Below are positions 4,359 to 45,690 of a stretch of 64,000 bases of DNA, piece after piece. The position numbers were made by a program, and so were the translations under genes. The stretch is taken from the NCBI RefSeq assembly GCF_030817215.1, contig NZ_JAUSZA010000001.1:1586501-1650500 (forward strand), given 5' to 3'. The first letter of the stretch is position 1; every line of letters begins with the position of its first letter. Source of the DNA: Paenibacillus sp. V4I3 (lineage in GTDB: Bacteria; Bacillota; Bacilli; Paenibacillales; NBRC-103111). The notes under the pieces were generated by a model, which was not told where the DNA came from, did no database searches, and saw only the letters and a list, made by a program, of their open reading frames with translations.

Positions 4359-4513
4359 AAACCATTTATGTGATGAATCATTACTTACCTATTAGCGGAA
4401 ATGACGATTTACTTAATCATGTTAGATATCAGCCTGATGTGTAAGTTAATATAACACAAAGGTAAGCTCGTGAGAAGTGTTTTAGATAAAATAAGGATTT
4501 AATCTAGAAGTTA

Positions 4514-4542: not shown

Positions 4543-4569
4543 TAGTAACACAAAAGAATACGTTTGTTT

Positions 4570-26824: not shown

Positions 26825-27010
26825 TGTTGTATTTTGTGCAACAACTCCTAGGCGCTTTCTTTGGACAAATTGGCTTTTTGTTGTACCGCGTACAACATTA
26901 TGGTGCGAATCGCTCAAAAATAGGCGTTTTAAGCTCAAATTGTTGTACGAAATACAACAATAGCAGGCCAAAGCAGCGTGAGGTAGATGTATTGTTGCAC
27001 AATATACAAC
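26825..27010. repeat. Nested palindromic repeat element, copy A (four hairpins)
   Basis: Four palindromes built on TGTTGTA-N3/5-TACAACA: 26825-26843, 26879-26897, 26939-26961 and 26994-27010, with centres 54, 62 and 52 bases apart. The first and fourth units are inverted copies of each other, as are the second and third. The middle holds a further weak stem (CTCAAAAA with TTTTAAG). The whole element is therefore a nested inverted repeat of about 185 bp. A homologous copy with near-identical spacing lies at 45477-45657. No ORF with a credible start crosses it. It fills most of the 489-base gap; the flanking parts show nothing clear. Confidence 0.8.
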
Positions 27011-27119
27011 TTGGACTGAGTGAACTCGGGGATTTTCAATGCATGTCTGATTAGTGGTTGCAGAGATCAAATAGTGCCTATGAAAAATACTTGGTGAGTC
27101 TGTGCATTCTTGCTAAGCG

Positions 27120-27410
27120 CTAAGAGCGGTCCATATCTTTGATATGGCTTTGGTAGCCGTCACACTCAATTCCAAAATAACCGATTGGGGTAAGGAATGC
27201 AAAATCGAGGAACTGTGACTTACGATTCCAATCGTAAATCTCATATTCCGGATGTAGGTTGTCGAAGTTTCCGAATAGCGGCCACCATACCTGTTGGAGC
27301 AGCAACTTTTCTGCATAGTTGTGCCCCCTTAGTAAACGGCCCTTTCTCTCACCAGTTCTGCGTGCATGATGGTTTTCTATGAACGACTGATGTGCTTGTT
27401 CAAATGGCAT
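27120..27410 (-). pseudogene. Truncated endonuclease-domain protein (N-terminal fragment)
   Basis: A 96-residue fragment: EKLLLQQVWWPLFGNFDNLHPEY, then KSQFLDFAFLTPIGYFGIECDGYQSH. The D-x-AFL and ECDGYQSH pattern recalls the active site of PD-(D/E)XK or Vsr-like proteins of the DUF559 kind, in which the chain normally goes on for another 100 or more residues. Here it stops at a TAG right after DMDRS. The sequence beyond the stop is intergenic in character and runs towards repeat copy A. It is probably a decayed gene. The ATG at 27410 is preceded by an AGGAGG site. Confidence 0.6.
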
Positions 27411-27433
27411 TTGGGTACGCCTCCTTATAAAAG

Positions 27434-27473
27434 AATAAAAAAACGCCCTTGCGCCACAGGGCTCAAGGACGTT
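27434..27473 (-). terminator. Terminator of the LacI regulator gene
   Basis: On the minus strand AACGTCCTTG pairs with CAAGGGCGTT and is followed by TTTTTT. It lies 60 bases after the LacI stop and just upstream of the truncated nuclease gene. Confidence 0.8.
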
Positions 27474-27532
27474 CTTCGTCTATTTGACATTATAACATTT
27501 TCCAGTAGACAGAGGAATTCAAAAAAATATTT

Positions 27533-28546
27533 CTATCCAAGCACTTTACAAGAATCACGCTCGATGAGTTCTCCATAAATGGAAATCTTCGCAGGGCTTC
27601 CGCCGAAATCGATTTTGCGAATGAGAAAATCCACGGCTTCATTGCCGAGCTGTTCCCGCTGCACTTGGATCGTCGTTAAGCGAGGAGCGATCATTTGAGC
27701 CGCTTCAATGTCGCCAAACCCAACAACGGAGATATCCTCCGGCACCTTGTAGCCTTTGGAAATAAGGATTTGAATGAAGGAAATCGCAATACGATCATCC
27801 GCACAAAACCAAGCTGTCGGCATAGAAGGCATCGCATCGAGATGATCTGCTAACTCAATGGGGGTGGAATTTAGCGCCTCCAGTGGTGAAGGATTAACGA
27901 TATTGTGATTCATATCGATTGCCAGCCCTGCATCAGACATGGCATTTTGGTACCCGGACCAACGTTCCCTGAAGCTCTTCGTCCTACTAATCGCACCGAT
28001 AAAACCAATCTGCTGATGACCTTTGTCAATGAGATGAGTGACGATTTTGTAAGCCTCTTCGGCATTCGCCGTTACAACAGCGTCAAACTGTAAGCTATCG
28101 TAATAATGATCCACCGTAACGAGGGGAATTCCCAAGTCAAAAAGCTTTCGTACATAGTTAAGATGAAGGACGCCAACGAGGAGTATGCCGTGAAATTCAA
28201 TTTCATGATAAAGCTCCGGCAGGATGAGTTGATCCTCCATCTCTTGTGTAACACTGCAAATAATGGCGTTGTAGCCATTTTCTTTGGCTCTTTTTTCTAT
28301 GGACCAGAACACCTCGTAGTAGAAGATTTTATCATTACGAATGTTTTCAGGGATTAAGACGAGCAGGTTGCCGCGTTTCTTTTTTGTTTTTGTATCTGTC
28401 CGATAGTTCAACTGATTAGCTGCTTCGAAAATACGAAAGCGCAATTCTTCGCTGACGCCAGCTTTATTATTAAGAGCCAGGGAGACGGCATTCTTGGAAA
28501 TGCCTAGCTTATCGGCTATGTCTTGCATGGAGGTTTTCGAATTCAT
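27533..28546 (-). CDS. LacI-family transcriptional regulator
   Basis: A 337-residue repressor. The HTH is SMQDIADKLGISKNAVSLALNNKAGVSEELRFRI (the LacI hinge and recognition helix), followed by a periplasmic-binding-like effector domain with ILLVGVLHLNYVRKLFDLGIPLVTVDHYYDS, HLIDKGHQQIGFIGA, AWFCADDRIAISFI and the C-terminal RLTTIQVQREQLGNEAVDFLI. It should bind a sugar or related effector. It is monocistronic, with no adjacent transport or enzyme gene that clearly matches, so its regulon is not evident. A long-spaced inverted repeat upstream may be its operator. Confidence 0.92.
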   Translation of the reverse strand: MNSKTSMQDIADKLGISKNAVSLALNNKAGVSEELRFRIFEAANQLNYRTDTKTKKKRGNLLVLIPENIRNDKIFYYEVFWSIEKRAKENGYNAIICSVTQEMEDQLILPELYHEIEFHGILLVGVLHLNYVRKLFDLGIPLVTVDHYYDSLQFDAVVTANAEEAYKIVTHLIDKGHQQIGFIGAISRTKSFRERWSGYQNAMSDAGLAIDMNHNIVNPSPLEALNSTPIELADHLDAMPSMPTAWFCADDRIAISFIQILISKGYKVPEDISVVGFGDIEAAQMIAPRLTTIQVQREQLGNEAVDFLIRKIDFGGSPAKISIYGELIERDSCKVLG

Positions 28547-28606
28547 TTTATGTACGGCCCCTTGAGAAGTATGTAGATCCTATTTTGTATTCTATAATTA
28601 TAGGAG

Positions 28607-28650
28607 TATTTTGTAAAGCAAAGTCAATTCATAAATCACTTTACAAAATA
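28607..28650. promoter_or_regulatory. Inverted repeat between LacI and kinase genes, putative operator
   Basis: Perfect 12-bp arms TATTTTGTAAAG (28607-28618) and CTTTACAAAATA (28639-28650), 20 bases apart. A related TATTTTGTAT lies at 28581-28590. Each arm looks like one half of a LacI-type operator. On the minus strand TTGACT (28622-28627) and TATAAT could be the promoter of the LacI gene, with an over-long 19-base spacer. Confidence 0.5.
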
Positions 28651-28678
28651 GATATTGTCAATGTTGTTCTTTGGATCA

Positions 28679-29266
28679 TTAGCCTCTATAAATGAATTTC
28701 TCAAGTACATCTAGCTTTACAGATGAAAGCGGTCCTGAATTATCGAAATAGAGAATCGAAGAGGGATCAATTAGCCATTTGATTTCTCTGCGAACGAGCG
28801 ACTGGCTAAAATGCTTCCAGTTGTCCAGCTTCCAAACATCTAAAGCGGAGCCTCTAGTCTGTATACGTTCTTGGTAGGCTTTCTCGCTTGGTAAATAGAC
28901 AAAAACAGCCCTAACGCACACATCGTTGATCGTAGTGCCGACGTTTGAAAGTTCCTTTTCCAGCCAAAGCGGATCTGCTAGTTCTTTGGTGAAAGGTCCG
29001 ACTACAATGGCATCCAAGCCTAGTTCAAGATTCTCAAGTGCTGCGTCCATCGTTATGCGGTATCCCAAATCGCGACAGTATGTCTTATATGTGGGGGAAT
29101 CCCGGTCGTTCGGGTCTTGTCCGGCAAGGGTCATGATCGCTTCTGCCGCGGGTCGGAGCAGCGTATCCATGTCCAAAAAAGCTCCGCCGTGCTTGCGTGC
29201 CCATGCTTTGGCGAGTGTCGTTTTCCCTGCACCGGCAGGACCTATGAAAAATATGAGTTTTCGCAT
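28679..29266 (-). CDS. P-loop kinase/ATPase, shikimate kinase-like
   Basis: A 195-residue nucleotide-binding protein. It begins MRKLIFFIGPAGAGKTTLAKAWA with a Walker A motif (about residues 9-17), then FLDMDTLLRP like the substrate Asp of small-molecule kinases, and AIVVGPFTKEL. A lid-like RIQTRGSALDVWKLDNW segment has the Arg residues expected of a phosphotransferase. The substrate is unknown. The ATG at 29266 has a GGAGG site; a longer reading frame upstream lacks one. It is monocistronic. Confidence 0.85.
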   Translation of the reverse strand: MRKLIFFIGPAGAGKTTLAKAWARKHGGAFLDMDTLLRPAAEAIMTLAGQDPNDRDSPTYKTYCRDLGYRITMDAALENLELGLDAIVVGPFTKELADPLWLEKELSNVGTTINDVCVRAVFVYLPSEKAYQERIQTRGSALDVWKLDNWKHFSQSLVRREIKWLIDPSSILYFDNSGPLSSVKLDVLEKFIYRG

Positions 29267-29465
29267 GACTAACCTCCGAATAAGGTTTCCTTTTAAGGGG
29301 ATTTGTACGAATATTGTAACATATGGGGTGCAAATCACATGAAATTCAGCAAACGTTCAGCTAATATTAAGGTTCTATTAAGGTTTAAGCCATAATTAGT
29401 TCACACTTATCAAGTAAAATACTTAGCACAGGGGGCTAAAAACCATACTGGAAGGAAAGATAGAG

Positions 29466-30692
29466 ATGAAAAACAATAATAAACCACTTGTCGGAAGTGG
29501 AAATAAAACAGCAGCCCTTTCTTTGTCAGCGTCTGGAACCCAAAATAAACAAGTTCATATTTTGAACAAATCGATTCCACAAATGACTATCAATTCTGAT
29601 AGTATTTCGGCAAAAACGGCAAATGATTGGCCTACACAAGGTTGGAAAACATCTACGCCAGAGGCGCAAGGGATGAACTCGGCTGGACTAGCCAAGATGC
29701 TCGAAGTTTTTCGCGACCAGCAGGTACATAGTGTAGCGGTAATTCGTAACGGGCATTTGGTTGCTGAAGCTTATAATGAGAGTACCCAAGCTGATTTGCC
29801 GCAAGATGTGAAGTCCGTGACCAAAAGCGTGACGTCAGCATTGATCGGTATTGCCTTGTCTGAGCGTAAGCTGATAAGTCTGGATCAGAGGCTTGCTGCT
29901 TTTTTTCCTGAGCTAGAAAGTGATCCACTGAAGTCTAAGATCATGTTAAAGCATTTGCTTACTATGACCTCAGGGCTAGCGTGGAACAATGAAAATGAAC
30001 AATCCTCAACTGAAATGATGTACTCATCGGACTGGGTGCAAAACGTTCTGGAACGTCCGGCTAAGAACCAGCCTGGTGCAATGTTTAATTACAGCAATGG
30101 TGATGCGCATCTTCTGTCTGCTGTACTGCAAAAGGTCACAGGCGAGTCCATGTTTGACTATGCCAAATCCCGCTTGTTCGAGCCGCTTGGTATAACAGAT
30201 GTAAACTGGAATCATGATCCTGGGGGCTGCACGATTGGGGCTTGGGCTATGGCTTTAACGTTAAGAAACATGGCCAAGATTGGCTATCTGTATCTGAAGG
30301 AAGGCCAGTGGGAAGACAAGACCATTATTCCGAAGTCATGGATCCGGGAGTCGGTGACTAAGCGTATATTCCTCAATTACAGTAATGGTACACAAGGTGG
30401 GTACGGCTATTATTGGTGGTCCAAGCCTTTGGCTCAGGGGCTAGTCAGAGGAAGCAAAAAGCAACATGAAGTGTTCTATGCATCTGGTTCAGGCGGAAGA
30501 CGCATATTTGTCGTCCCTGATCTGCAATTAGTCGTTGCAGCTACAGCGCATTCGGCGGATGTGGACATGCCGGAACAACTACTAAACCATGTGGTTCAAT
30601 CTATTAGATCGGATAAGCCGATTCAAGAGAATTCGGAAGCTTTTGCTGGACTGGATCAGGCTATTGAGGCTTTTAAGATGGGATTAGAGTAG
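29466..30692 (+). CDS. Serine hydrolase, class C beta-lactamase-like
   Basis: A 408-residue penicillin-recognising-fold enzyme. The nucleophile motif SxxK is in DVKSVTKSVTSALIG, the second motif YxN is FNYSNGDAHL, and a glycine-rich third motif YASGSGGRRIF replaces the usual HTG or KTG. It has no signal peptide or lipobox; the first 50 residues are Asn/Ser/Lys-rich, so it is probably cytoplasmic. Such proteins act as esterases or D-amino peptidases as often as beta-lactamases. It is monocistronic, with GGAAGG upstream of the ATG and a terminator behind. Confidence 0.88.
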   Translation: MKNNNKPLVGSGNKTAALSLSASGTQNKQVHILNKSIPQMTINSDSISAKTANDWPTQGWKTSTPEAQGMNSAGLAKMLEVFRDQQVHSVAVIRNGHLVAEAYNESTQADLPQDVKSVTKSVTSALIGIALSERKLISLDQRLAAFFPELESDPLKSKIMLKHLLTMTSGLAWNNENEQSSTEMMYSSDWVQNVLERPAKNQPGAMFNYSNGDAHLLSAVLQKVTGESMFDYAKSRLFEPLGITDVNWNHDPGGCTIGAWAMALTLRNMAKIGYLYLKEGQWEDKTIIPKSWIRESVTKRIFLNYSNGTQGGYGYYWWSKPLAQGLVRGSKKQHEVFYASGSGGRRIFVVPDLQLVVAATAHSADVDMPEQLLNHVVQSIRSDKPIQENSEAFAGLDQAIEAFKMGLE

Positions 30693-30716
30693 ACTTAAAA
30701 AGTTTATAGAAATAAT

Positions 30717-30748
30717 GAAGGAGCTGCCGTGGCAGCTCCTTTTTTTTG
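30717..30748 (+). terminator. Rho-independent terminator
   Basis: AAGGAGCTGCC pairs with GGCAGCTCC, followed by TTTTTTTT, 25 bases after the serine hydrolase stop. Confidence 0.92.
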
Positions 30749-30845
30749 CAAATTATGTGAGTGGAAGTTCGTAAAAGTGCAGGGATATATTGGAATTAAT
30801 TGAATTAATAATTAGGGAAGCAAATGATCCAGGAGGATTATTTAA

Positions 30846-31418
30846 GTGGAGAGTAACAAAAATCCATTCGCTGTAGATTCATACATTGTTCTTGATATCC
30901 CTGAAGACATAGCACAGAAAGTAATGAATATTCGAAAACATAATAAGGATCAATTTAGACTGTCATTACCTGTAGAAATAACAATTACTGGTTCAAGTGG
31001 AATTGGTGTTATAGACCATAATGAAGATCCGGAAAAAGTATTTAATATTGTAGGGGAAATAACGGCCAGTATTCCACCTATAAGAGCCACATTTGGTAAT
31101 GTTATACGATTTCCGTATACAGATATATTTGTGTTAACACTTAAAGATGAGGGACCTTTCAAGAAGTTTCAAAAACGATTAGCTGATTCTGGTATTAGGT
31201 TTAAGGAGAATCCTTTTCCATATAAGCCCCATTGTACATTAAGAGGTAGGTCACCTGTGACAGAAGAAGAGGCAGAACAACTATATAAAGTCTCTATTAC
31301 AGAAGCGTTTTATCTGAATACATTCTCTATATATTCATTAGGAACTGATAATGAAAAGGTGAATTTGGAAAGACTACAATTCGGTAAACTTCTAGGAAAA
31401 AAAAGTAAATTATTTTGA
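30846..31418 (+). CDS. 2'-5' RNA ligase superfamily protein
   Basis: A 190-residue protein of the LigT / 2H phosphoesterase type. The second HxT motif is clear, YKPHCTLRG. The position of the first motif reads LPVEITITG, with Glu where His is expected, so only one of the two catalytic histidines is seen. Either this subfamily uses another residue or the protein is a non-catalytic binder. The GTG start follows an AGGAGG site. The GC content of this gene and the next (30846-31988) is clearly lower than that of the neighbours. It lies 57 bases ahead of the Nudix gene and is probably co-transcribed with it. Confidence 0.8.
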   Translation: MESNKNPFAVDSYIVLDIPEDIAQKVMNIRKHNKDQFRLSLPVEITITGSSGIGVIDHNEDPEKVFNIVGEITASIPPIRATFGNVIRFPYTDIFVLTLKDEGPFKKFQKRLADSGIRFKENPFPYKPHCTLRGRSPVTEEEAEQLYKVSITEAFYLNTFSIYSLGTDNEKVNLERLQFGKLLGKKSKLF

Positions 31419-31475
31419 GAGTAAATCAATGAGGGCATTGAAAGATCAGAGACAACAATATTGGAGTTGATCATT

Positions 31476-31988
31476 TTGTCAGTGAATGTAACGCACAAAA
31501 TATATACAATGTGTATGATACAAGATGGAACTAGAGTTTTATTAATGAATAGACCAGACAAACTAGGGTTTCCAGGATACATAGCACCGGGAGGTAAGGT
31601 TGATTTTCCAGAGAGTATAGTTAATGGGGCAATTCGGGAAGTAAGAGAAGAGACCGGCTTAATTATTAAAGACATTATTTATAAAGGTCTGGATGAGTTT
31701 TGCGAGCCTAATAAAGGGCTAAGGTACATGGTATTTAATTATTTGGCCACTTCATTTGAGGGAGATATACTCAAGAATCCTCCAGAAGGGGAGCTATTGT
31801 GGGTAGAAATCGAAGAAGCATTAAAGTTACCTATGCAAGATTGGTTTAAGCGAAGATTTCCTTTGTTCTTTGAACAGGGAACGTTTGAATTGAGTTTTGT
31901 ATGGGATGAGAAAAGCAATGAAACATTAGAAGAGACTATTAAGAGCTATGCTGTAGGTGAATTCAAAGAAGTTGGATCCATCAACTAA
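31476..31988 (+). CDS. Nudix hydrolase
   Basis: A 170-residue Nudix protein with a complete box: GGKVDFPESIVNGAIREVREETGLI fits G-x5-E-x7-REVREETGL. It begins VNVTHKIYTMCMIQDGTRVLLMNRPDKLGFPGYIAPG, as in MutT/YtkD 8-oxo-dGTP-type enzymes. It hydrolyses a nucleoside diphosphate derivative; the exact substrate is not readable. TTG at 31476 was chosen because TTGGAG lies nine bases upstream; a TTG at 31461 is itself part of that site. Like the preceding gene it is AT-rich. Confidence 0.87.
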   Translation: MSVNVTHKIYTMCMIQDGTRVLLMNRPDKLGFPGYIAPGGKVDFPESIVNGAIREVREETGLIIKDIIYKGLDEFCEPNKGLRYMVFNYLATSFEGDILKNPPEGELLWVEIEEALKLPMQDWFKRRFPLFFEQGTFELSFVWDEKSNETLEETIKSYAVGEFKEVGSIN

Positions 31989-32068
31989 CATGCGGCGCAA
32001 ACGCGCCTTAAACTAGTAAGGGTTCGGGAATACAACAAGGTTATCCGAAAGAACCGATTAAAAATCTT

Positions 32069-32812
32069 TTAAATGATAATTCCTTTTTCCGATAAAGTTT
32101 TGCGCAAAACATCTGTCATTATGTTATAGCCGAGCACATTTGGATGAAGGGAGTCGTCAGACAATTCCGATCGCAACGTTTTGCCGTCCGGACCCACGAG
32201 ATTGGCATGATAGTCAACATAGATAACTCCTTCATAATCTGCCATATGTTTTAGAGCTCGGTTTGAGAATGCAAGTAGTTCATTACGAACACCCGTGCTG
32301 TTGTTGGGACAACGAATCAACGGTTCGAAGGGGAAGCAAGGAATATCTCTGCCAGTAGGCAGGTTCGAACCGACAATTGGTATTATGCCGCTGCTTTTGG
32401 ACAATCGAACCATCGACGTGATATCGCTTAGAATCTCATGATTGATTTGTTCGGGTGTTCTTCGTTCGCGCATGTCTACAGCATCAAGTCTCCATGTATT
32501 ATTCGTTCCCCCTAGAATATGGACATATTGGGGCCTTAATTGAATAACATCGGCAGGAAAACGTCGAAGCATAATCGGTGTGATGTCTCCCGAAATCCCG
32601 CGGTTGACAATGAAATTTCTGGATGAACCGAAATAGACTTGTAAATCCCAAAATTGTGTGATGGATTCACCGATGAAAACAAAATTAACTGCGATATGAT
32701 GAAACAGGATTTGCTCGTTAAAGCCGTCATAAGCGGCACGCAAACGGTCAGCGGCTGCATTGAATGAAAAGTTGCCTGGCCTGATGAGTGGTACTCTTTG
32801 TCTAGCGGACAA
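32069..32812 (-). CDS. SGNH/GDSL-family hydrolase
   Basis: A 247-residue esterase-fold protein. Block I is FIGESITQFW (Glu in place of Asp of GDS), block III is ILGGTNNTW, and block V is DDSLHPNVLGY with the catalytic Asp/His. The oxyanion Gly is in NRGISGD. No signal peptide is seen. Substrates of this fold include acyl esters and acetylated sugars. The TTG start at 32812 follows AGTAGGGGA. It is convergent with the Nudix gene. Confidence 0.87.
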   Translation of the reverse strand: MSARQRVPLIRPGNFSFNAAADRLRAAYDGFNEQILFHHIAVNFVFIGESITQFWDLQVYFGSSRNFIVNRGISGDITPIMLRRFPADVIQLRPQYVHILGGTNNTWRLDAVDMRERRTPEQINHEILSDITSMVRLSKSSGIIPIVGSNLPTGRDIPCFPFEPLIRCPNNSTGVRNELLAFSNRALKHMADYEGVIYVDYHANLVGPDGKTLRSELSDDSLHPNVLGYNIMTDVLRKTLSEKGIII

Positions 32813-33005
32813 AAAATCCCCTACTTTCCGAATAATCGTTTCAAATTATGTGTATAAGAAATTCTTGTATAAAAGAACAGGAATGAAATAGGTTAAAATA
32901 AAATATTTGATTTTTGTAAGATTAAGTCATTCAAGAAGCACTTGAGTTTATAAAGCAATATGACTTATATTTTGAAGATAATTTTAAATGATATGAGGTG
33001 CAATT

Positions 33006-33272
33006 ATGTTTGACGAATTCACAAAGAAACGATTAGAAAATATTTTACAGGAATATATTGGAAAGAAGATACCCAAGCATTTAAACAATCAGATTCGGAT
33101 GGTGTATAAATTTAGAGGGAACAATGTGACACTCATCGAGGAAAGGGAACGCTTTATTGGTACTGAATGGACGCAATTTGATATTGCGCAATTCAGATTT
33201 GAATCAAATGAATGGAAGTTGATAAGGACAATACAGGAGTGTTTTGGGGATAATACTGCGAAAGCTGTTTGA
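33006..33272 (+). pseudogene. DUF3024-family protein with internal deletion and frameshift
   Basis: The first 73 residues match DUF3024: FTKKRLENILQEYIGKKIPKHLNNQIRMVYKFRGNNVTLIEERERF, then IAQFRFESNEWKL. After this point the frame diverges. The +1 frame at 33222-33253 reads DKDNTGVFWG and a stop at 33251-33253, which is the usual C-terminus of the family. About 25-30 residues between WKL and DKD have been lost, and the deletion shifted the frame so that the real stop is missed and translation runs to 33272. It is a decayed gene. The preceding gap (32813-33005) is AT-rich and shows nothing else. Confidence 0.75.
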
Positions 33273-33289
33273 AGACCTGCGAACGATAA

Positions 33290-33323
33290 TAAAAAGCCTA
33301 TTCTACGAAAGAATAGACTTTCA
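33290..33323. terminator. Bidirectional terminator
   Basis: AAAGCCTATTCT (33293-33304) pairs with AGAATAGACTTT (33310-33321), with an A-run on the left that becomes TTTTTATT on the minus strand. It lies immediately after the stop of the leftward sensor lipoprotein gene. Confidence 0.8.
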
Positions 33324-33324
33324 T

Positions 33325-34293
33325 CTAATTTTTGTTCGTATCCTTCGCTGGAAGCTCCGTCATACCCGTATCAATCCATGGCGGAAGCGTCTTACCCTCT
33401 GCGGCCATCAGCAGATGATCGATGAGGAGGTTGCCCCACTGATGTTCATTCTCTGATATAACGGAGACCATCTGCCCGTTGATTAGAGCCTCCTTGACTT
33501 CAGGCGTCAAGCCAATAGCAAGAACACTTCGGTTTAAGCCTGTAGCTTTCCAAAATAAGATCGAAGCGGAGCTTGAGATGATATCCAGATTGACCAAAGC
33601 ATCAAAGTGAGGATGCTCGTCGATCATCCCTTCCAGATCCTTTAGCGCCTGCTCGCTGTGCCCTTCGTTGTAGCGAGTCTCTAATACTTGGATCTCTGTT
33701 TGATGTTTAACATAATGGAGCAAACCTTCCAATCGACGACTGTATAAGTTCATCTTGGCTATACCGGACTCGATGAGGATCATTCCTTTGCTCTTCAGGT
33801 GCAAACTTAGCATTTCCCCCATCCGAATACCTTCCTGAAATGGATCAGCACCGATAAAGGTCAGCCGATCACTATCCGGGGCATCGGATTCAAAGCAAAT
33901 GACTGGAATGCCGGCTTGAACTGCTTTATTAATGGTAGGAGTCAGCGCCTCGGGGTCAATAGGATCGATTGCGATTCCGCTTACCTTTTGTTTTATCATC
34001 GTCTCCATCATCCGGATTTGCTGTTCTAGGTTAATTTCATCCGGAGCCTTCACGATCAACTGAATGCCCTGCGGCTTTGCATCGCGTTCGGCTAGTTCTG
34101 TAATCATCTCATAGAAGGGATGCGCCATCGGATAAATGATTCCAAAGGTGCGAACGGGCGTCTGCTCCTTCGCAGTTGGTACGGGCGTCCGTTCAGGGGC
34201 AGGCGTGCTTGTTGGTGAGATGCCCAGGCATCCGGAAAGCAATATAAGCGCTAGCAACGTAAGCCGTTTAACCTTGGTCACACCACGTATCAA
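33325..34293 (-). CDS. Periplasmic sugar-binding lipoprotein encoded with a two-component system
   Basis: A substrate-binding protein of about 322 residues. The signal helix LTLLALILLSGC ends in a lipobox and is followed by a Thr/Pro-rich linker. The domain starts TFGIIYPMAHPFYEMITELAERDA and has ISGIAIDPIDPEALTP-like and AVQAGIPVICFESDAPDS motifs of peripla_BP_4 sugar-binding proteins. It follows the response regulator, overlapping its 3' end. In Firmicutes a third-component binding protein of this kind presents sugar to the sensor kinase, which is the likely role here. The start is uncertain: TTG at 34293 has AGGAGG nine bases away; GTG at 34311 and GTG at 34281 are alternatives. Confidence 0.82.
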   Translation of the reverse strand: MIRGVTKVKRLTLLALILLSGCLGISPTSTPAPERTPVPTAKEQTPVRTFGIIYPMAHPFYEMITELAERDAKPQGIQLIVKAPDEINLEQQIRMMETMIKQKVSGIAIDPIDPEALTPTINKAVQAGIPVICFESDAPDSDRLTFIGADPFQEGIRMGEMLSLHLKSKGMILIESGIAKMNLYSRRLEGLLHYVKHQTEIQVLETRYNEGHSEQALKDLEGMIDEHPHFDALVNLDIISSSASILFWKATGLNRSVLAIGLTPEVKEALINGQMVSVISENEHQWGNLLIDHLLMAAEGKTLPPWIDTGMTELPAKDTNKN

Positions 34294-35911: not shown

Positions 35912-35917
35912 TGGTCC

Positions 35918-37727: not shown

Positions 37728-37987
37728 TCGTGACCTTTCTACTAATATAGTGCAGCGTTTCTTGTATTCAAATTATGAGGTATAAAATATGAAAACGCAA
37801 TCATTAGACAAGAAACTACACTTCTTAACAAAGAAAACAAAGGAATTAGGGCTTGGCTCTCAAACAGCCTGAAAAACACATAAAAATTTATAAAGACGAG
37901 ATATGAAACTCCGTATACCCTCGATCTGTAAGCGTCTTATAATCAGGGCACACCAACGATAATGGTGAGTCAAAGGGAGGAATGAAT

Positions 37988-39022
37988 ATGAAAGTTACTA
38001 AGAAAATGGGGCTCGTAACCGCTGCGGTGATGATGATGTTGACAGCAGCGTGCGGAAGTACAACCGGAACGACAACAACAGGGGCTAAGCCAGCAGCGAC
38101 AGAGAACACGGCCAAGACCACCCCGGCTCCGGCTCCGGCAGACAAAAAGATTACGCTCGGCTTTGCCCAGGTTGGTGCGGAGAGCGGCTGGAGATCAGCG
38201 AACACCAAGTCGGTTCAGGATTCGGCGAAGGAAGCCGGCTTTGATCTTAAGTTCTCCGATGCACAGCAAAAGCAGGAGAATCAAATCAAGGCCATCCGCA
38301 CGTATATTCAGCAAAAGGTTGATGTGATCTCGTTCTCCCCTGTGGTTGAATCCGGTTGGGATACCGTGCTTAAGGAAGCGAAGGATGCCGGCATTCCCGT
38401 CATTCTTACAGACCGTGCGGTTGATTCGAAGGACACCTCCTTATATGTCTCCTTTATAGGCTCTGACTTCGTAGAAGAAGGCCGCCGTGCAGGCAAGTGG
38501 TTGGTGGATCAATCCAAGGATAAGAAGGAAACTGTGAATATCGTTGAGCTTCAAGGGACGACAGGCTCTGCACCTGCGAATGACCGGAAGTCCGGCTTTG
38601 AAGAGGTGATCAAGTCTAATCCGAATCTTAAGGTTATTGCTTCCCAGACCGGTGATTTCACCCGTGCGAAAGGGAAGGAAGTTATGCAGGCATTCCTGAA
38701 GGCAAACAAAAAAATCGACGTTTTGTATGCGCATAATGATGATATGGCCCTTGGAGCGATTCAGGCCATTGAAGCAGCAGGCTTAAAGCCAGGCAAGGAC
38801 ATTATCATTATCTCCATCGACGGCGTGAAGGACGGCTTTGTTGCAGCAAGCGAAGGCAAAATTAACTTTATCGTGGAATGTAACCCGCTGCTCGGACCAC
38901 AGCTGATGCAGGCTGTACGCGATGTGCTCGGCAGCAAGCAAATTCCCAAGCGAATTGTAACCAAGGAAGGCGTATTCACCTCTGAGGATGCGAAACGTGA
39001 GCTGGCTAACCGACAATATTAA
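37988..39022 (+). CDS. ytfQ: Galactofuranose-type ABC transporter solute-binding lipoprotein (YtfQ-like)
   Basis: A 344-residue binding protein. The signal ends at lipobox MLTAACG and a Thr/Ala/Pro-rich linker follows. The domain reads KITLGFAQVGAESGWRSANTKSVQDSAK, the hallmark of YtfQ, then KQKVDVISFSPVVESGWDTVLKEAKDAGIPVILTDRAVD, AHNDDMALGAIQAIEAAGLKPGKDI and NPLLGPQLMQAV. The family binds galactofuranose or related furanoses. The ATG at 37988 was chosen over 37982 because GGGAGG is seven bases away. It is the first gene of the transporter operon, divergent from the two-component genes, and a terminator-like hairpin separates it from the ATPase. A TATAAT at 37938-37943 lacks a good -35, fitting an activator-dependent promoter. 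Confidence 0.9.
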   Translation: MKVTKKMGLVTAAVMMMLTAACGSTTGTTTTGAKPAATENTAKTTPAPAPADKKITLGFAQVGAESGWRSANTKSVQDSAKEAGFDLKFSDAQQKQENQIKAIRTYIQQKVDVISFSPVVESGWDTVLKEAKDAGIPVILTDRAVDSKDTSLYVSFIGSDFVEEGRRAGKWLVDQSKDKKETVNIVELQGTTGSAPANDRKSGFEEVIKSNPNLKVIASQTGDFTRAKGKEVMQAFLKANKKIDVLYAHNDDMALGAIQAIEAAGLKPGKDIIIISIDGVKDGFVAASEGKINFIVECNPLLGPQLMQAVRDVLGSKQIPKRIVTKEGVFTSEDAKRELANRQY

Positions 39023-39039
39023 TTAACAAAAAAAGGATC

Positions 39040-39080
39040 AAAGCCGTTCCGATCGAGTTATCTGTGTGGAGCGGCTTTTA
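39040..39080 (+). terminator. Intra-operon terminator/attenuator after the binding protein gene
   Basis: AAAGCCGTTCC (39040-39050) pairs with GGAGCGGCTTT (39068-39078), followed by TTATT. The position between binding protein and ATPase genes suggests partial termination, giving an excess of binding protein over transporter. Confidence 0.75.
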
Positions 39081-39105
39081 TTCTTGAAGGGAGAGGGTTT
39101 GTCAG

Positions 39106-40614
39106 ATGAAGGAGCACGGACCCGTATTACAAATGACAGGAATTCATAAACAATTTCCTGGAGTTAAAGCGTTGTCGGACGTAAACTTCCGGATGTTTCC
39201 CGGCGAGGTTCATGCGCTGATGGGGGAGAATGGTGCCGGTAAGTCCACATTGATTAAGGTGCTTACAGGCGTCTATTCGATTGATCAAGGTTTAGTGGAG
39301 ATGGAGGCTAAGCAGATCCAAATCATGAGTCCGCAGGATGCCCAGAACGCGGGAATCAGTACGGTATACCAGGAAGTGAATCTTTGTCCGAATCTTTCGG
39401 TCGCCGAAAATATCTTTATTGGACGCGAGCCGTTGCGCTTTGGCCGCATTTTATGGAAGGAAATGAACCGCAATGCGATAGCCCTGCTAAAGGACAGACT
39501 AAATCTGCAAATTGATGTCACGCAGCCGCTGCAGTCTTACTCGGTTGCCGTTCAGCAGTTGATCGCGATTGCAAGAGCGTTAAGTATTTCGGCGAAAGTG
39601 CTTATCCTGGATGAACCAACATCCAGCTTGGATCGAGGTGAGGTACAGCAGCTATTCTCAGTGATGAGGAAGCTAAAAAGCGAGGGGCTTTCTATCTTGT
39701 TTGTTACCCATTTCTTAGAGCAGGTATATGAAATTTCAGATCGAATAACCATTCTCCGTAATGGAGAGTTTATCGGGGAATATATGGCCAAGGACCTTAC
39801 TCGAATAGATTTGGTATCAAAAATGATTGGTAAGGAGCTTCATATGCTGGAGGAGTTGCCGAAGCTATCCGGCGTGGATGGGGACACAGGGGAAGTGCTG
39901 CTCGATGCTTCTAAATTTGGCAGAAAAGGGGCGATAGAGCCGGTAGATCTGCAGATTCGCAAGGGGGAAGTCGTTGGACTAGCGGGATTGCTCGGCTCCG
40001 GAAGAACAGAGCTGGCCCGGCTCTTGTTCGCGGCAGACCGTGCGGATGAGGGAGTCCTCCAATTCGAGGGTAACCGTGTGTCCATCCAGACGCCGCGGCA
40101 GGCGATCGATCAAGGCATTGCTTTTTGCTCCGAGAATCGAAAGACCGAAGGCATAATTGACGATCTGACCGTTAGGGAAAATATCATTTTGGCGCTTCAG
40201 GCGTCCCAAGGCTGGTTTAAAGCGATCTCTCGGAAGCGTCAGGATGAAATTGCGGATGCGTATATGAAAATACTCAATATCAACCCGCCGAACCCGGAGC
40301 ATCTGATCAAAAATTTAAGCGGCGGAAACCAGCAAAAGGTGCTTCTGGCCCGCTGGCTGCTGACTCAGCCGAAGCTGCTTATTCTAGATGAACCGACTAG
40401 AGGCATAGATATCGGGGCCAAGGCGGAAATTCAGAAGCTGGTGCTCTCCTTATCGGAGAAAGGCATGTCCGTGCTGTTTATATCTTCTGAGCTCGAAGAA
40501 GTACTGCGGGTAAGCGATCGAATCGCTGTGCTTCGGGATCGCCGCAAGGTCAAAGAAATGTCTGGCGATGAGATGAGTCAAAAAAATGTTATGCAGGCTA
40601 TAGCAGGGGGGTAA
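39106..40614 (+). CDS. ytfR: Sugar ABC transporter ATP-binding protein with two NBDs (YtfR-like)
   Basis: A 502-residue fused ATPase of the RbsA/MglA/YtfR type. The N-terminal NBD has Walker A GENGAGKSTL, a degenerate signature and Walker B LILDEPTSSLD. The C-terminal NBD has the degenerate Walker A-like GLLGSGRTEL, the signature LSGGNQQKVLLARWL and Walker B LILDEPTRGID. This asymmetry is normal in the family. It energises furanose import with the two permeases downstream. The TCAG-ATG start has a GGGAGAGGG site. Confidence 0.93.
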   Translation: MKEHGPVLQMTGIHKQFPGVKALSDVNFRMFPGEVHALMGENGAGKSTLIKVLTGVYSIDQGLVEMEAKQIQIMSPQDAQNAGISTVYQEVNLCPNLSVAENIFIGREPLRFGRILWKEMNRNAIALLKDRLNLQIDVTQPLQSYSVAVQQLIAIARALSISAKVLILDEPTSSLDRGEVQQLFSVMRKLKSEGLSILFVTHFLEQVYEISDRITILRNGEFIGEYMAKDLTRIDLVSKMIGKELHMLEELPKLSGVDGDTGEVLLDASKFGRKGAIEPVDLQIRKGEVVGLAGLLGSGRTELARLLFAADRADEGVLQFEGNRVSIQTPRQAIDQGIAFCSENRKTEGIIDDLTVRENIILALQASQGWFKAISRKRQDEIADAYMKILNINPPNPEHLIKNLSGGNQQKVLLARWLLTQPKLLILDEPTRGIDIGAKAEIQKLVLSLSEKGMSVLFISSELEEVLRVSDRIAVLRDRRKVKEMSGDEMSQKNVMQAIAGG

Positions 40615-40619
40615 GTGAG

Positions 40620-41648
40620 ATGGTAAGGCATCATTTGTTTTGGCCGCTTACCGTGTTAGGCGTGCTGTTATTGTTTAACCTGCTTTATTCGCCGGACTTC
40701 TTCTCAATTAAGTTGAGAGAAGGGCACTTATACGGCAGCCTTATCGATATTTTAAACTTCGGGTCACCCTTAATCTTGGTGGCGATTGGGATGACTTTGG
40801 TCATTGCGACCAAGGGCATTGACTTATCTGTAGGGTCAGTTGTCGCCATTGCTGGAGCGATCTCCTGCCTTCTTATTAGTAAAGGCAGCGCACAGGACTC
40901 TCTTTCCCTCGTATTCATAGCGGTTGGTGTTTCCTTGGCGTTATCGATTGTACTGGGGACTTGGAATGGCTTCTTGGTCGCTGGTGTGGGCATTCAGCCG
41001 ATTATTGCAACTTTGATTCTCATGGTGGCGGGGCGCGGGCTGGCTCAGTTGATCACTGGTGGACAGATCATCACGGTGTCCAGCGCTTCGTACAAATATA
41101 TTGGTGCAGGCTCGCTAGCTACGCTGCCGTTTTCAATCTTTATCGTTGCTATCGTGGTGATCATAGCTGCTGTATTGACGAGAAAGACGGCGCTTGGCCT
41201 ATTCATCGAGTCGGTTGGCTGCAAACCGACAGCCAGTCATCTGGCTGGCATCAGGTCCAAGACCGTTTTGCTCGCGGTATATATGTTCTGCGGATTATGT
41301 GCGGGCATTGCCGGCTTAATTCTCAGCTCTAACGTGTCGAGTGCAGATGGAAATAACGCGGGACTGTGGTACGAGCTGGATGCCATCCTTGCCGTCGTGA
41401 TCGGAGGTACTTCTCTGAATGGCGGACGGTTTTACTTAATGGGGACGCTCATTGGGGCACTCATTATTCAAACTTTAACGACCACCATTTATATGATCGG
41501 CGTACCGCCTGAAATTACATTGGTGGTGAAGGCATTCGTTGTATTAGCTGTGTGCCTGATCCAATCGGAGCAATTCCGCAAAACGCTGATGCAGCGCTGG
41601 AAAACCCGCCATTATTCGGCGGAGCGGGAGGTAAAGCAGCATGTTTAA
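40620..41648 (+). CDS. ytfT: Sugar ABC transporter permease (YtfT-like)
   Basis: A 342-residue membrane protein with eight or more helices. The BPD_transp_2 family signature is IGMTLVIATKGIDLSVGSVVAIAGAISCLLI, and near the C-terminus LWYELDAILAVVIGGTSLNGGRFYLMGTLIGALII. It follows the ATPase by five bases and overlaps the second permease by eight, so the subunits are made together. Two different permeases are typical of the YtfQRT-YjfF system. Confidence 0.92.
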   Translation: MVRHHLFWPLTVLGVLLLFNLLYSPDFFSIKLREGHLYGSLIDILNFGSPLILVAIGMTLVIATKGIDLSVGSVVAIAGAISCLLISKGSAQDSLSLVFIAVGVSLALSIVLGTWNGFLVAGVGIQPIIATLILMVAGRGLAQLITGGQIITVSSASYKYIGAGSLATLPFSIFIVAIVVIIAAVLTRKTALGLFIESVGCKPTASHLAGIRSKTVLLAVYMFCGLCAGIAGLILSSNVSSADGNNAGLWYELDAILAVVIGGTSLNGGRFYLMGTLIGALIIQTLTTTIYMIGVPPEITLVVKAFVVLAVCLIQSEQFRKTLMQRWKTRHYSAEREVKQHV

Positions 41649-42606
41649 GAGACAATATATTCCGATTCTGGTGACCATCTCCTTATTCGCGCTCATGTTC
41701 GCTGCGGGGTCCTTTCGATATACCGGATTCTTCTCCCTGCAGGTCATACTGAATCTTTTGATCGATAATGCCTTTCTGCTAATCGTGGCTGTGGGGATGA
41801 CCTTAGTCATTGTGTCCGGAGGCATTGACTTATCCGTCGGTTCGATAATCGCATTAACAACGATGGTGTCCGCAAGTCTTGTACAGGCAGGCTGGCCGCC
41901 GGCGCTAGTGATCCCACTGGTGCTGCTTATGGGGAGCTTGTTCGGATGGGCAATGGGAGCCATCATTCATTATTTTAAAATTCAGCCGTTCATTGTTACA
42001 TTAGCCGGCATGTTCCTGGCTCGTGGACTATGCTATCTGATCAGCATCAATACCATTACGATCGATAACGGCTTCTACACCACAATGGCTCAAACCAAGG
42101 TCAGTTTACCAGGTGGAAATCACGTATCCATTAGTGTCATCATTGCGCTATTGGTATTGTTCGCCGGCTTCTTCATTGCACACTACACTCGCTTGGGACG
42201 CAATACGTACGCTTTGGGCGGCAGCGAGCAATCTTCCCTGCTGATGGGACTGCCGGTGGGCCGTGTCAAAATGCTGGTGTACACCTTCAGCGGCTTTTGC
42301 TCCGCCCTTTCGGGCGTCGTGTTTACCTTCTATATGCTGTCAGGCTACGGGCTGCATGCGATGGGTTTGGAGCTGGATGCGATCGCTGCGGTGGTGATCG
42401 GCGGAACACTGCTGACCGGCGGCGTTGGTTACATCGCAGGCACCTTCTTCGGCGTCATGATCCAAGGTCTCATTCAAACGATTATTAGCTACGAAGGAAC
42501 ACTGAGCTCCTGGTGGACCAAGATCGTCATTGGCCTGCTGCTCTTCTTGTTTATCCTGCTGCAACGCTTGCTGAGTGAACGTCGTTGGGTACAACGGAGA
42601 GGGTAA
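41641..42606 (+). CDS. yjfF: Sugar ABC transporter permease (YjfF-like)
   Basis: A 321-residue membrane protein homologous to the preceding permease: VGMTLVIVSGGIDLSVGSIIALTTMVSASLV, RNTYALGGSEQSSLLMGLPVGRVK, and LELDAIAAVVIGGTLLTGGVGYIAGTFFG. It forms the heterodimeric membrane channel with the YtfT-like subunit. The start overlaps the preceding gene by eight bases with GGAGG inside its 3' end. Confidence 0.92.
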   Translation: MFKRQYIPILVTISLFALMFAAGSFRYTGFFSLQVILNLLIDNAFLLIVAVGMTLVIVSGGIDLSVGSIIALTTMVSASLVQAGWPPALVIPLVLLMGSLFGWAMGAIIHYFKIQPFIVTLAGMFLARGLCYLISINTITIDNGFYTTMAQTKVSLPGGNHVSISVIIALLVLFAGFFIAHYTRLGRNTYALGGSEQSSLLMGLPVGRVKMLVYTFSGFCSALSGVVFTFYMLSGYGLHAMGLELDAIAAVVIGGTLLTGGVGYIAGTFFGVMIQGLIQTIISYEGTLSSWWTKIVIGLLLFLFILLQRLLSERRWVQRRG

Positions 42607-42677
42607 AATTAGAGCAACACATGGCACGTTTTTTGATACAATAGGTATTAATAGAGCTTTCAACGGTTCTGGCAAGC

Positions 42678-43739
42678 ATGCTTGAAAAGGTCGGTGAATT
42701 CGTGGGGAAGCTGGCGAAACTTGTCACTGCAGGGGCGATGGTCTTATTTATAATGCTTTCGGGCTGCGAGACAGGGCAGGAAAATACTGAACGTTCAGCG
42801 ATGATTTCATCCAACGAGCCGACACTTCAGGCTGCAGGGAATGAGATCGTGCCCGCAAGAAGCATTGTAGTGGGCTTCTCACAGCTCGGTTCGGAAAGCG
42901 ATTGGCGCAGAGCGAATACGCGCTCTATCCAAGAAGCGGCGAAGGAAACGGGTATTCAGCTCATTCTCGAAAATGCGGAGCAATCCCAAGAGAAGCAATT
43001 CGAAGCGATACGGGCCTTTGTGAAGCAAAAGGTTGACGTCATTGCCATTGCCCCGGTCGTAGAGAAGGGCTGGGAGCCCATTTTACGAGAAGTGAAGCAA
43101 GTTGGAATACCGGTGATTATCACAGACCGTTTAGTTGAGGTGTCGGACCCATCGTTATACGTCAGCTATATCGGTTCAGACTTTTACGAGGAAGGACGTA
43201 TGGCGGGAAAGTATGTCATGGATAAGCTGCTGCGTGCGGAAGGGCCCATCGGTATCGTAGAACTGAAGGGTACAGAAGGTTCTACCCCCTCGCTCTCAAG
43301 AGGGAAAGGCTTCCATGATGTCATTAAGCAAAACCCTAATCTTCAGGTGGTGGAGAGTGAGTACGCAAACTTTACGGTAGAGCAGGGCAATAAGGTCATG
43401 CGAGAATTGCTGGAACGGAGAAGCAAGGAAATTCGTGTGCTCTTTGCGCATAATGATGACATGGCGCTTGGAGCAATTGAAGCGATAGAAGCGTATGGAT
43501 TAAAGCCTGGCAAGGACATTGTGATCGTCTCGGTAGACGGCACCCGGAAGGCCTTCGAACGGATGGTAGCTGGTAACATCAACAGCGTAGTAGAATGTAA
43601 TCCCTTGCTGGGACCCTACCTGATGCAAGCCGTGAAGGAGATGCTCGACGGTCGAACGTTACCAAAGCGGATCGTCACACCGGAGCGAATTTTCACAGAG
43701 GTTACGGCTCATAATGAACTGAATAACCGTATGTATTGA
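42678..43739 (+). CDS. Second YtfQ-like solute-binding lipoprotein
   Basis: A lipoprotein of about 353 residues, paralogous to the one at 37988: SIVVGFSQLGSESDWRRANTRSIQEAAK, KQKVDVIAIAPVVEKGWEPILREVK, AHNDDMALGAIEAIEAYGLKPGKDI and VVECNPLLGPYLMQAV. The signal is VTAGAMVLFIMLSGC and the linker is shorter than in the first copy. The start is uncertain: ATG at 42678 has no good ribosome binding site, while GTG at 42702 follows AAAAGG at a long distance. Two binding proteins bracket one transporter; this one may serve a different sugar or take part in sensing. Confidence 0.88.
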   Translation: MLEKVGEFVGKLAKLVTAGAMVLFIMLSGCETGQENTERSAMISSNEPTLQAAGNEIVPARSIVVGFSQLGSESDWRRANTRSIQEAAKETGIQLILENAEQSQEKQFEAIRAFVKQKVDVIAIAPVVEKGWEPILREVKQVGIPVIITDRLVEVSDPSLYVSYIGSDFYEEGRMAGKYVMDKLLRAEGPIGIVELKGTEGSTPSLSRGKGFHDVIKQNPNLQVVESEYANFTVEQGNKVMRELLERRSKEIRVLFAHNDDMALGAIEAIEAYGLKPGKDIVIVSVDGTRKAFERMVAGNINSVVECNPLLGPYLMQAVKEMLDGRTLPKRIVTPERIFTEVTAHNELNNRMY

Positions 43740-43827
43740 TATAACCAGGTGAGGTGTCCGCTGTAGCCCTGGAATCGTCTTCTGCCACTGAGCATTTAAA
43801 TAAACCAATAAAAATGGTTACAACTTA

Positions 43828-43858
43828 CCCCTCAATCACCTTTGAGGGGCTTTTTTTT
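43828..43858 (+). terminator. Terminator of the furanose transporter operon
   Basis: CCCCTCA (43828-43834) pairs with TGAGGGG (43843-43849), followed by CTTTTTTTT. Confidence 0.9.
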
Positions 43859-43917
43859 GTTCCCGAGGCAAGATGTAGTAATATAGGAAGAACAGCAAGA
43901 AGAAGGGGAGTTTATTC

Positions 43918-45363
43918 GTGGGTATAAGAAGTTTTACGGATTATAATTTGAGTGAAGATATCGTACGGGCGCTTCAAAGCTTAGGATACGAGCAGCCAAC
44001 AGATGTGCAGAATGAAGTGATTCCTATCGCGCTGCAGGAGAAGGATCTCACGGTTAAGTCAAGAACAGGAAGCGGGAAGACGGCGGCGTTCGGTATACCG
44101 ATTTGTGAATTGGTGGAGTGGGAAGAGAACAGACCGCAGGCGCTGATTTTGACACCGACGAGAGAACTGGCCGACCAAGTAAAGCAGGATATCACGAATA
44201 TCGGGAGATTCAAGCGGATTAAAGCGGTGGCTCTGTATGGGAAGCAGCCTTTTGCCAAGCAGAAGATTGAGCTGCACCAGAAGTGCCATGTTGTTGTTGG
44301 GACGCCTGGCCGCGTGCTGGATCATATTCAGAAAGGGACGCTGGACCTGGAGCGGCTGAAATATCTAGTCATCGATGAAGCGGATGAGATGCTGCGGATG
44401 GGCTTCATTGAGCAGGTGGGGGCGATTATTGATGAGCTTCCGACGGATCGCATGACGATGTTATTTTCGGCAACACTTCCAAATGACGTGGAACAATTAT
44501 GCCATCGATACATGCGTAACCCCATTGATATTGAGATTCAAACGCCGGAGGCATCTAAGGTTCAGATTGAGCATTCCATTATAACGGTTCGAGAAAATGA
44601 TAAGTTTAACGTGCTTAAGGATGTCTTCGTGGTGGAGAATCCCGATAATTGCATCATTTTCTGCCGGACACAAGAGCATGTCGACTACTTATATAGACAG
44701 TTGGAGCAGTTGGACTATCCGTGCGATAAAATCCACGGGGGCATGATACAGGACGATCGGTTCCTAGTCATGAATGCTTTCAAAAGAGGGGAATTCCGTT
44801 TCTTAATTGCTACGGATGTCGCGGCGCGAGGGATTGACGTGGAGGATATCACACATGTCATTAACTACGATCTTCCGCTTGAAAAAGAAAGCTATGTCCA
44901 CCGAATCGGAAGAACGGGACGTGCGGGGAAGACGGGCAAGGCGATTACATTTGTTACGCCAAATGAGGACAAGTTTCTAGCTGATATTGAGGGCTATCTG
45001 GGGTTCGAAATACCGAGAAAAGACGCTCCCACGGCGGAGGAGGTTGCTACTGGACAACCTGCTTTTGATCAGAAAATGCAGGCCACGCCGGTCATTAAGA
45101 GGGATAAAAGTGACCAACTGAACAAGGGAATCATGAAGCTCTATTTTAACGGCGGGAAAAAGAAAAAGATTCGGGCTGTAGACTTTGTGGGAACCTTGGC
45201 CAAAATTGAAGGTATCACGGCTGACGATATCGGTATCATTACGATTCAGGACAATGTTTCGTATGTGGATATTTTGAATGGTAAAGGCCCGTTGGTGCTC
45301 AAAATCATGAAGAATACGACGATTAAAGGCAAGCTGCTCAAGGTGCATGAAGCGAATAAGTAA
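43918..45363 (+). CDS. dbpA: DEAD-box RNA helicase DbpA/YxiN
   Basis: A 481-residue ATP-dependent RNA helicase. The motifs are all intact: [12 protein letters not shown] (I), PTRELADQ (Ia), TPGRVLDH (Ib), VIDEADEML (II), LFSATLP (III), [11 protein letters not shown] (V) and [10 protein letters not shown] (VI). The C-terminal 75 residues, [27 protein letters not shown], form the DbpA RNA-binding domain that targets 23S rRNA hairpin 92, pointing to large-subunit ribosome assembly. The GTG start follows AAGGGGAG. The gene is monocistronic with terminators on both sides. Confidence 0.95.
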
Positions 45364-45370
45364 GAACAAG

Positions 45371-45405
45371 GATCCGGTTAGCCTCTGTGGCTCATCGGAT
45401 TTTTT
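45371..45405 (+). terminator. Terminator of dbpA
   Basis: ATCCG...AGCC pairs with GGCT...CGGAT, followed by TTTTTT, eight bases after the stop. Confidence 0.8.
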
Positions 45406-45476
45406 GCTGTTTGAGGGAGAAGGGGGCGGATTAGGAGGCCAGCCTGATAGTCTTTTTTCGGCTTATAGGAGCGAAA

Positions 45477-45657
45477 GTTGTACAGAGTACAACAATTTCA
45501 GAGGTTTCTTCTCATCCTAGCAGGAGATGTTGTATGTTGTACAACAATTTAGCCTCATTTCCTTCAAAAGAGCTGTTTTTGAGGGAAATGTTGTATTTTC
45601 TGCAACAATCGCAGGGAAAACGTGGATTAGCCAGCTTATTGTTGTACAAAATACAAC
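45477..45657. repeat. Nested palindromic repeat element, copy B (four hairpins)
   Basis: Four palindromes of the GTTGTA-N-TACAAC type: 45477-45493, 45528-45546, 45589-45607 and 45641-45657, centres 52, 61 and 51 bases apart, against 54, 62 and 52 in copy A. Unit three (TGTTGTA-TTTTC-TGCAACA) differs by one base from unit one of copy A. The spacer after unit three (GCAGG...AA..GTG...TAG) also resembles the corresponding copy A spacer. A central stem CAAAA-N6-TTTTTG lies between units two and three. No gene crosses it. It occupies the gap between dbpA and a sugar transporter operon. Confidence 0.82.
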
Positions 45658-45690
45658 TTTGAGCTACAGGTTAAAATTTTACCCAAAGGG

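Follow-up and report, generated by a model that had tools for sequence, protein, structure and literature searches.

The stretch of DNA analysed here (the window) comprises 64,000 nucleotides of the chromosome of Paenibacillus sp. V4I3 (contig NZ_JAUSZA010000001.1, positions 1,586,501 to 1,650,500) and holds two copies of an element built of four regularly spaced palindromes. The original prediction had placed two such copies here, with centre spacings of 54-62-52 and 52-61-51 bp, and both the copies and their spacings were confirmed. Copy 1 (26825..27011, plus strand) reads along the strand of our element model with the 54-62-52 spacing; its units, located by unit scoring and carrying no strand of their own, are TGTTGTATTTTGTGCAACA (26825..26843), TGTTGTACCGCGTACAACA (26879..26897), TGTTGTACGAAATACAACA (26941..26959), and TGTTGCACAATATACAACT (26993..27011). 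Copy 2 (45476..45658, minus strand), spaced 52-61-51, lies in the window in reverse orientation compared with the model, such that its palindromes, scored in the same way, correspond in order to model unit 4 (AGTTGTACAGAGTACAACA, 45476..45494), unit 3 (TGTTGTATGTTGTACAACA, 45528..45546), unit 2 (TGTTGTATTTTCTGCAACA, 45589..45607), and unit 1 (TGTTGTACAAAATACAACT, 45640..45658). When a palindrome unit of 19 bp was counted wherever at least 12 of its 14 arm positions matched, the window contained eight units, all inside copies 1 and 2, compared to 0.6 units per 64 kb (maximum of 2 in 20 runs) in first-order Markov controls. Exact GTTGTA..TACAAC occurred 5 times where 0.02 would be expected.

The suggestion that this is a dispersed element held for the whole genome (G000; chromosome of 8.17 Mb) and for its order. 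A full copy is ~190 bp long and consists of four 19-bp palindromes with the consensus TGTTGYA-N5-TRCAACA, whose centres lie 51-52, 62, and 51-52 bp apart (hereafter the 5-6-5 layout). Allowing up to one mismatch, GTTGTA-N5-TACAAC was found 208 times in the 8.17-Mb genome, vs. 28 times for a reversed control. A sequence-only model (R1), built from 17 copies that all came from V4I3, produced at least 142 matches on both strands of that genome at E values up to 10 (best 150 of 2118 candidates scored), and these were merged by hand into at least ~73 places, a tally in which some places are weak and the interrupted copy at 948614/949294 counts twice. Copies were sorted manually into types A and B according to their sequence similarity. 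The surrounding sequence was retrieved for 65 of the 73 places, the eight left out scoring below 28 bits, and all four units stood in the 5-6-5 layout at 31 of the 65 (unit cut-off 11/14), with fewer recognisable units at the remainder. Across the order, at least 76 of 296 genomes and at least 12 of 48 genera carried the element at E 1e-6 or better. In a set of 60 genomes including V4I3, at least 32 matched at E 0.01 or better, some of them marginally, and several species of the same genus were without a match. These counts are lower bounds, as at most 150 candidates were scored in V4I3, 43 per genome in the 60-genome search, and 8 per genome in the 296-genome search. Three identical units (GTTGTACGTTGTACAAC) also occur in V4I3 at C1:629823, 642504, and 663145, outside four-unit blocks among the matches listed.

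Spacing between neighbouring units falls into two classes, of five and six helical turns (~52 or 62 bp), one turn of DNA being ~10.5 bp. In V4I3, neighbouring units were separated by 51 bp (n = 44), 52 bp (n = 37), or 62 bp (n = 29), so that 81 of the 89 spacings within 49-55 bp were 51-52 bp and 29 of the 35 within 60-66 bp were 62 bp. Fourteen other spacings fell between 49 and 66 bp and 13 were longer, nine of the latter at 112-118 bp, as expected when one unit is missed. To avoid bias from the model, we also scanned GTDB, one genome per species, for triplets of units, TTGT-N7-ACAA followed by two of TTGnA-N5-TnCAA, whose spacings could each take any value between 40 and 70 bp; the results rest on the 80 loci listed of 116. 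Paenibacillaceae, as assigned by record title, accounted for 63 of the 80, with 82 triples (overlapping triples, two from one element, being counted separately), and among these loci 162 of 164 spacings were 50-53 or 61-63 bp, the exceptions being 69 and 40 bp; the quantised spacing is concluded from this result. The 17 listed loci from other groups had scattered spacings, except for arrays at 40-43 bp. Four of the loci (L265, L292, L227, and L242, titled Bacteroidaceae, Prevotella, Bacteroidales, and Flammeovirgaceae) have TTGTA-type palindromes of their own at 40-43 bp, or about four helical turns.

In other families of the order, the geometry is kept and the arms are changed. One genome from another family (G045) has arms TAGTTGYA..TRCAACTA at 51-62-51 bp, and another (G044) has arms TTAGTTGGA..TCCAACTAA at 51-62-52 bp. 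A version with 51-52-52 spacing is found in G033, while G006 and G005 hold long arrays in which spacings of 52 and 62 bp alternate or a block is repeated; for all five genomes the arm consensus was chosen by eye.

To compare the evolution of arms with that of their surroundings, we located orthologous intergenic stretches by their gene flanks in seven relatives, six of them close and one more distant. Between V4I3 and these relatives, differences were found at 52 of 1074 arm positions, 82 of 388 loop positions, 406 of 2210 spacer positions, and 875 of 7803 flanking positions, coding DNA included, in a tally that covers 21 of 29 comparisons (those in which 28 or more arm positions were aligned) and that includes one (L195) with a different subfamily at the same spot. 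Since the V4I3 copies had been chosen for good arms, a second tally was made among the other genomes only (19 of 29 stretches, 18 pairs, 7 loci). Arms differed at 70 of 960 positions (7.3%), loops at 87 of 345 (25.2%), spacers at 447 of 1993 (22.4%), non-coding flanks at 1750 of 5596 (31.3%), and coding DNA at 1156 of 9397 (12.3%), giving a ratio of arm to spacer divergence of 0.33 (0.18-0.54 by bootstrap over loci). One locus in this tally, 615894, pairs two elements that both belong to G025 (L199 and L200, separated by 22 kb) instead of true orthologs; leaving it out gave 69/918 for arms, 86/330 for loops, 429/1864 for spacers, 1562/5282 for non-coding flanks, and 909/8922 for coding DNA. 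Spacers had 15 indels per 447 substitutions (3.4 per 100), compared to 113 per 1750 (6.5 per 100) in non-coding flanks. Because arms diverge less than the loops, spacers, and non-coding flanks of the same locus, they appear to be under purifying selection in place, at each locus and to a degree that leaves them less diverged than coding DNA, while the loops appear free.

The flanks of the single V4I3 element at C1:615894 lie ~22 kb apart in G025 (C92:18924-42263) and in G015 (C2:6795042-6817489), with one element at each end of the ~22 kb in G025, and a deletion by recombination between copies is possible. Beside locus 460092, runs of CCTCTAA-like heptamers adjoin the element in G025 and G016 (L165 and L166). 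At locus 7145285, G028 has a subfamily-B element (L195) in the intergenic spot where its relatives have another type; the gene downstream is presumably ruvB.

Copies are also polarised with respect to replication. The origin of V4I3 was placed at parS, 1.0245 Mb; exact parS (TGTTNCACGTGAAACA) was found at two places in 1.023-1.026 Mb, neither of them at a listed element. With a clear orientation defined as a score margin of at least 25 bits between strands, 27 of 28 copies in V4I3, 22 of 23 in G015, and 11 of 12 in G028 pointed one way relative to replication, three counts that are not independent since many loci are shared, and of which the last two assign an unlisted opposite strand the listing floor (a value of 0 instead gives 27/29 and 13/14). 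Below a margin of 15 bits, where copies are mostly near-symmetric, there was no polarity (4/11, 3/8, and 7/15), and window copy 1, with a margin of 18 bits, is an exception to the rule. Over all places, the rule held at 47 of 55 for type A and 7 of 18 for type B. Type-A copies of at least 80 bits in convergent and divergent contexts were aligned with replication in 14 of 15 cases; therefore, gene direction does not explain the polarity. Codirectional leading-strand copies of this class followed the rule in 15 of 15 cases, and the two codirectional lagging-strand copies split 1:1. Tallies of orientation against gene direction were set aside, as they are confounded with replication. Copies were enriched near the origin and scarce near the terminus in V4I3 and G015 (Kolmogorov-Smirnov p 2e-5).

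Three explanations had been offered originally, namely a multi-site binding platform, a structured RNA, and a mobile element of either of two kinds, and the first of these is the best fit to our results. Half-sites vary independently, which speaks against an RNA or hairpin function and would suit a protein with two subunits, each recognising one half-site on double-stranded DNA. Over 202 V4I3 units, the Y/R pair was T-A in 114, C-A in 59, T-G in 22, and C-G in 5, vs. 9.0 double changes expected if half-sites were independent, so that the "paired changes" (TGCAACA vs. TACAACA) reported earlier turned out to be one-sided; loop-edge bases paired in 61 units vs. 61.6 expected. A structured non-coding RNA with four hairpins might be proposed from the folding of copy 1, the copy examined, which forms a single extended inverted repeat whichever strand is folded (z -7.4 and -6.8), though such energies are a consequence of the palindromes. 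The alignment of 17 copies showed no covariation (score of 0.029 vs. 0.029 shuffled), with 91.2% of cells pairing, equal to shuffled, and both-side changes at 2 vs. 1.9 shuffled; C-A mismatches would interrupt the model strand in 59 of the 202 units; and Rfam gave no match at the element, its only matches above gathering score in the window being two Guanidine-I riboswitches. The RNA and hairpin readings were rejected on the lack of covariation and of an Rfam match at the element, and we consider such an RNA highly unlikely. The two riboswitches lie back to back at 4266-4368 (minus strand) and 4560-4658 (plus strand). A regulon, in which a transcription factor would act through multi-site operators, is easier to entertain, as dimeric helix-turn-helix regulators bind palindromic half-sites of this size and window copy 1 is located 194 bp upstream of the gene of an ArsR-like regulator. 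Copies do sit between longer open reading frames (ORFs). Neighbours were assigned on ORF length alone; the context tally excludes ORFs that share more than 60 bp with a copy, and short ORFs (92-120 aa), which overlapped 7 of 19 copies, were set aside as spurious. However, no common functional theme was found among 40 neighbouring proteins (30 from V4I3 and the window, 10 from relatives; a Pfam family was found in 34), and the 47 places of at least 60 bits comprised 17 convergent, 6 divergent, and 24 codirectional contexts (raw counts, without a genome-wide background), such that convergent contexts outnumber the divergent ones. A phased array of 190 bp would also be unusual for an operator, and we regard a regulon as improbable. 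Terminator-like hairpins faced the unit-4 side at 12 of 39 copies vs. 3 on the unit-1 side, a difference that is confounded with polarity.

The rival deserving most weight is a mobile element, i.e., a non-autonomous element resembling a miniature inverted-repeat transposable element (MITE), whose palindromes would be sites for a transposase supplied elsewhere and whose copies would be useless to the host. The dispersal over at least ~73 places in V4I3 would follow, and the fixed polarity could reflect an insertion bias. Outside two subfamilies, similarity between copies at different loci mostly starts a few bp ahead of unit 1 and stops 10-30 bp beyond unit 4 (the two subfamily groups share longer flanks), and one subfamily-B copy (193375) has MITE-like 18-bp terminal inverted repeats, each end deviating from the reference at a single position, together with a 5-bp TCACA duplication. 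This copy is, however, the only one with both features among the 18 places assigned to group B, and for the common type A the proposal is unproven: no target duplication was found among the type-A alignments listed, and no ends were recognised beyond the outer units. One element queried against plasmid and phage collections gave no match, nor did an array from G005 in the plasmid collection, and arms that diverge at roughly a third of the spacer rate within a locus are not expected of neutral relics. We therefore think this reading rather unlikely as it stands; a mobile element whose copies the host later put to use would perhaps reconcile dispersal with selection in place. The interrupted subfamily-B copy at 948614/949294 (L122 ~2244-2799; C1 ~948.74-949.30, printed "Mb") contains an insert of ~560 bp with ends GAGTCAATTTCATAAT / ATTATGAAATTGACTC and an apparent CATTA duplication, which is probably a true MITE inserted in the element. 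Mobilisation of repetitive extragenic palindromic (REP) sequences or bacterial interspersed mosaic elements (BIMEs) by a REP-associated tyrosine (Y1) transposase (RAYT), or an origin from IS200/IS605 derivatives with subterminal hairpins, would account for extragenic palindromes in a regular layout, and the replication polarity would fit elements targeting the lagging-strand template (as described in part of PMC6006769). The original prediction had looked to a REP-associated transposase elsewhere in the genome, and a search for Y1_Tnp (PF01797), the only transposase family searched, found it in 1 of 11 genomes (G028) and in neither V4I3 nor the nine others with or without the element. The absence of Y1 transposase from element-rich genomes among those searched speaks against this origin, and the arms lack covariation, hence no hairpin is maintained. 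An origin of this kind is not supported, and we give it very little credence.

We consider it on balance probable that the element is a docking platform on double-stranded DNA, in which four palindromic sites would be occupied by a predicted dimeric protein, because selection on half-sites, their independence, spacing in whole helical turns, and neighbouring genes without a common theme all point to it. Several observations weigh against this. The protein is predicted, and its binding is deduced from sequence. Arms had 7 indel events over 960 positions, per kb as many as spacers, and the second tally left out partial and absent copies, which biases it toward intact and maybe conserved ones; the outermost arm pair (1-19) showed 7 double changes vs. 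5.2 expected over the 202 units. Copies are lost often between species: the locus of window copy 2 (1631974) has no copy in G016 or G024 and a partial one in G003 and G028; at locus 460092, G028 lacks the copy and G015 retains part of it; and G016 has none at locus 6173715. The absences at 460092 and 1631974 have ragged, deletion-like ends, and five orthologous stretches in G024 held nothing resembling units. These losses, together with a dispersal and tandem arrays that look like mobile DNA and the terminal repeats and duplication of copy 193375, favour the MITE-like alternative. G024, G004, and G008 are among the species of the same genus that had no match at E 1e-6, and with such species in the genus the element is therefore dispensable. 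Finally, origin-proximal enrichment was absent in G028 (p 0.94), which weakens a general role in segregation or nucleoid occlusion.

Known systems share parts of this pattern. Plasmid centromere repeats such as sopC are regularly spaced palindrome arrays bound by a partition protein; the element shares the regular arrays and differs in being dispersed over the chromosome, where its blocks mostly have four sites or fewer, and no partition gene was found among the neighbouring genes checked (40 proteins submitted). The ram sites of RacA are likewise chromosomal protein sites, with a GC-rich motif that differs from the half-site TGTTGYA. In Bacillus subtilis, RacA is a helix-turn-helix protein that condenses and anchors DNA at ram sites dense near the origin (passages of PMC6593407). 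The element, like REP/BIME sequences, consists of regularly spaced extragenic palindromes, yet its half-sites are conserved in sequence without a pairing constraint, its spacing is helix-locked, and no RAYT gene was found in V4I3. REP/BIME sequences are located at the 3' ends of genes. Their palindromes are extragenic, with regular spacing and alternating orientation (passages of PMC2817692). Bacterial MITEs (RUP, bcr1, and others) are dispersed, intergenic, and without coding capacity according to the passages of PMC3733652, which do not mention Paenibacillus; the element is likewise all three, and differs in that its arms are constrained in place and that, for type A, neither ends beyond the outer units nor a target duplication was found among the alignments listed. 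Noc-binding sites (NBS) of B. subtilis, about 70 copies of a 14-bp palindrome, and the 24-52 SlmA sites of E. coli are under-represented in the terminus (passages of PMC4726725). The element resembles both in its several dozen dispersed palindromic sites and their scarcity near the terminus in V4I3 and G015, but differs in having no terminus depletion in G028 and in its 5-6-5 turn lattice, which those passages do not describe for NBS or SlmA sites. Repeats of P. vortex were counted in PMC3012674, whose passages do not describe the four-palindrome element, nor did literature searches, some of them aimed at it, list a description, as judged by titles and abstract openings.

On a docking platform, the predicted dimers, one per palindrome, would bind together on one face of the helix. 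They would probably be helix-turn-helix proteins binding cooperatively along the 5-6-5 lattice, and the bound lattice may form a local loop, bridge, or nucleoprotein knot. The protein, its cooperative assembly, and an architectural role are what we infer. Our leading guess for the job, and the most speculative step, is the organisation of the chromosome, be it domain bridging, segregation, or division timing, and not the control of single promoters. The fixed polarity suggests that copies may have been acquired, or retained, in coordination with the passage of the replication fork.

More tentatively, and with doubt exceeding confidence, the element could belong to a previously undescribed chromosome-organising system of this order, in which a dimeric protein would occupy four-palindrome lattices of 5-6-5 turns at dozens of polarised stations between genes. 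Protein specificity and arms would co-evolve across families, and the lattice would stay fixed. If this is true, the element would play in bacteria the part of a dispersed architectural or insulator site. Many families of bacterial intergenic repeats are regarded as selfish or of no known use; the present element combines what appears to be in-place selection on the letters of a protein site with a whole-helical-turn spacing rule and a replication polarity, and it thus offers a concrete, testable lead to a possibly architectural protein in a large bacterial group.

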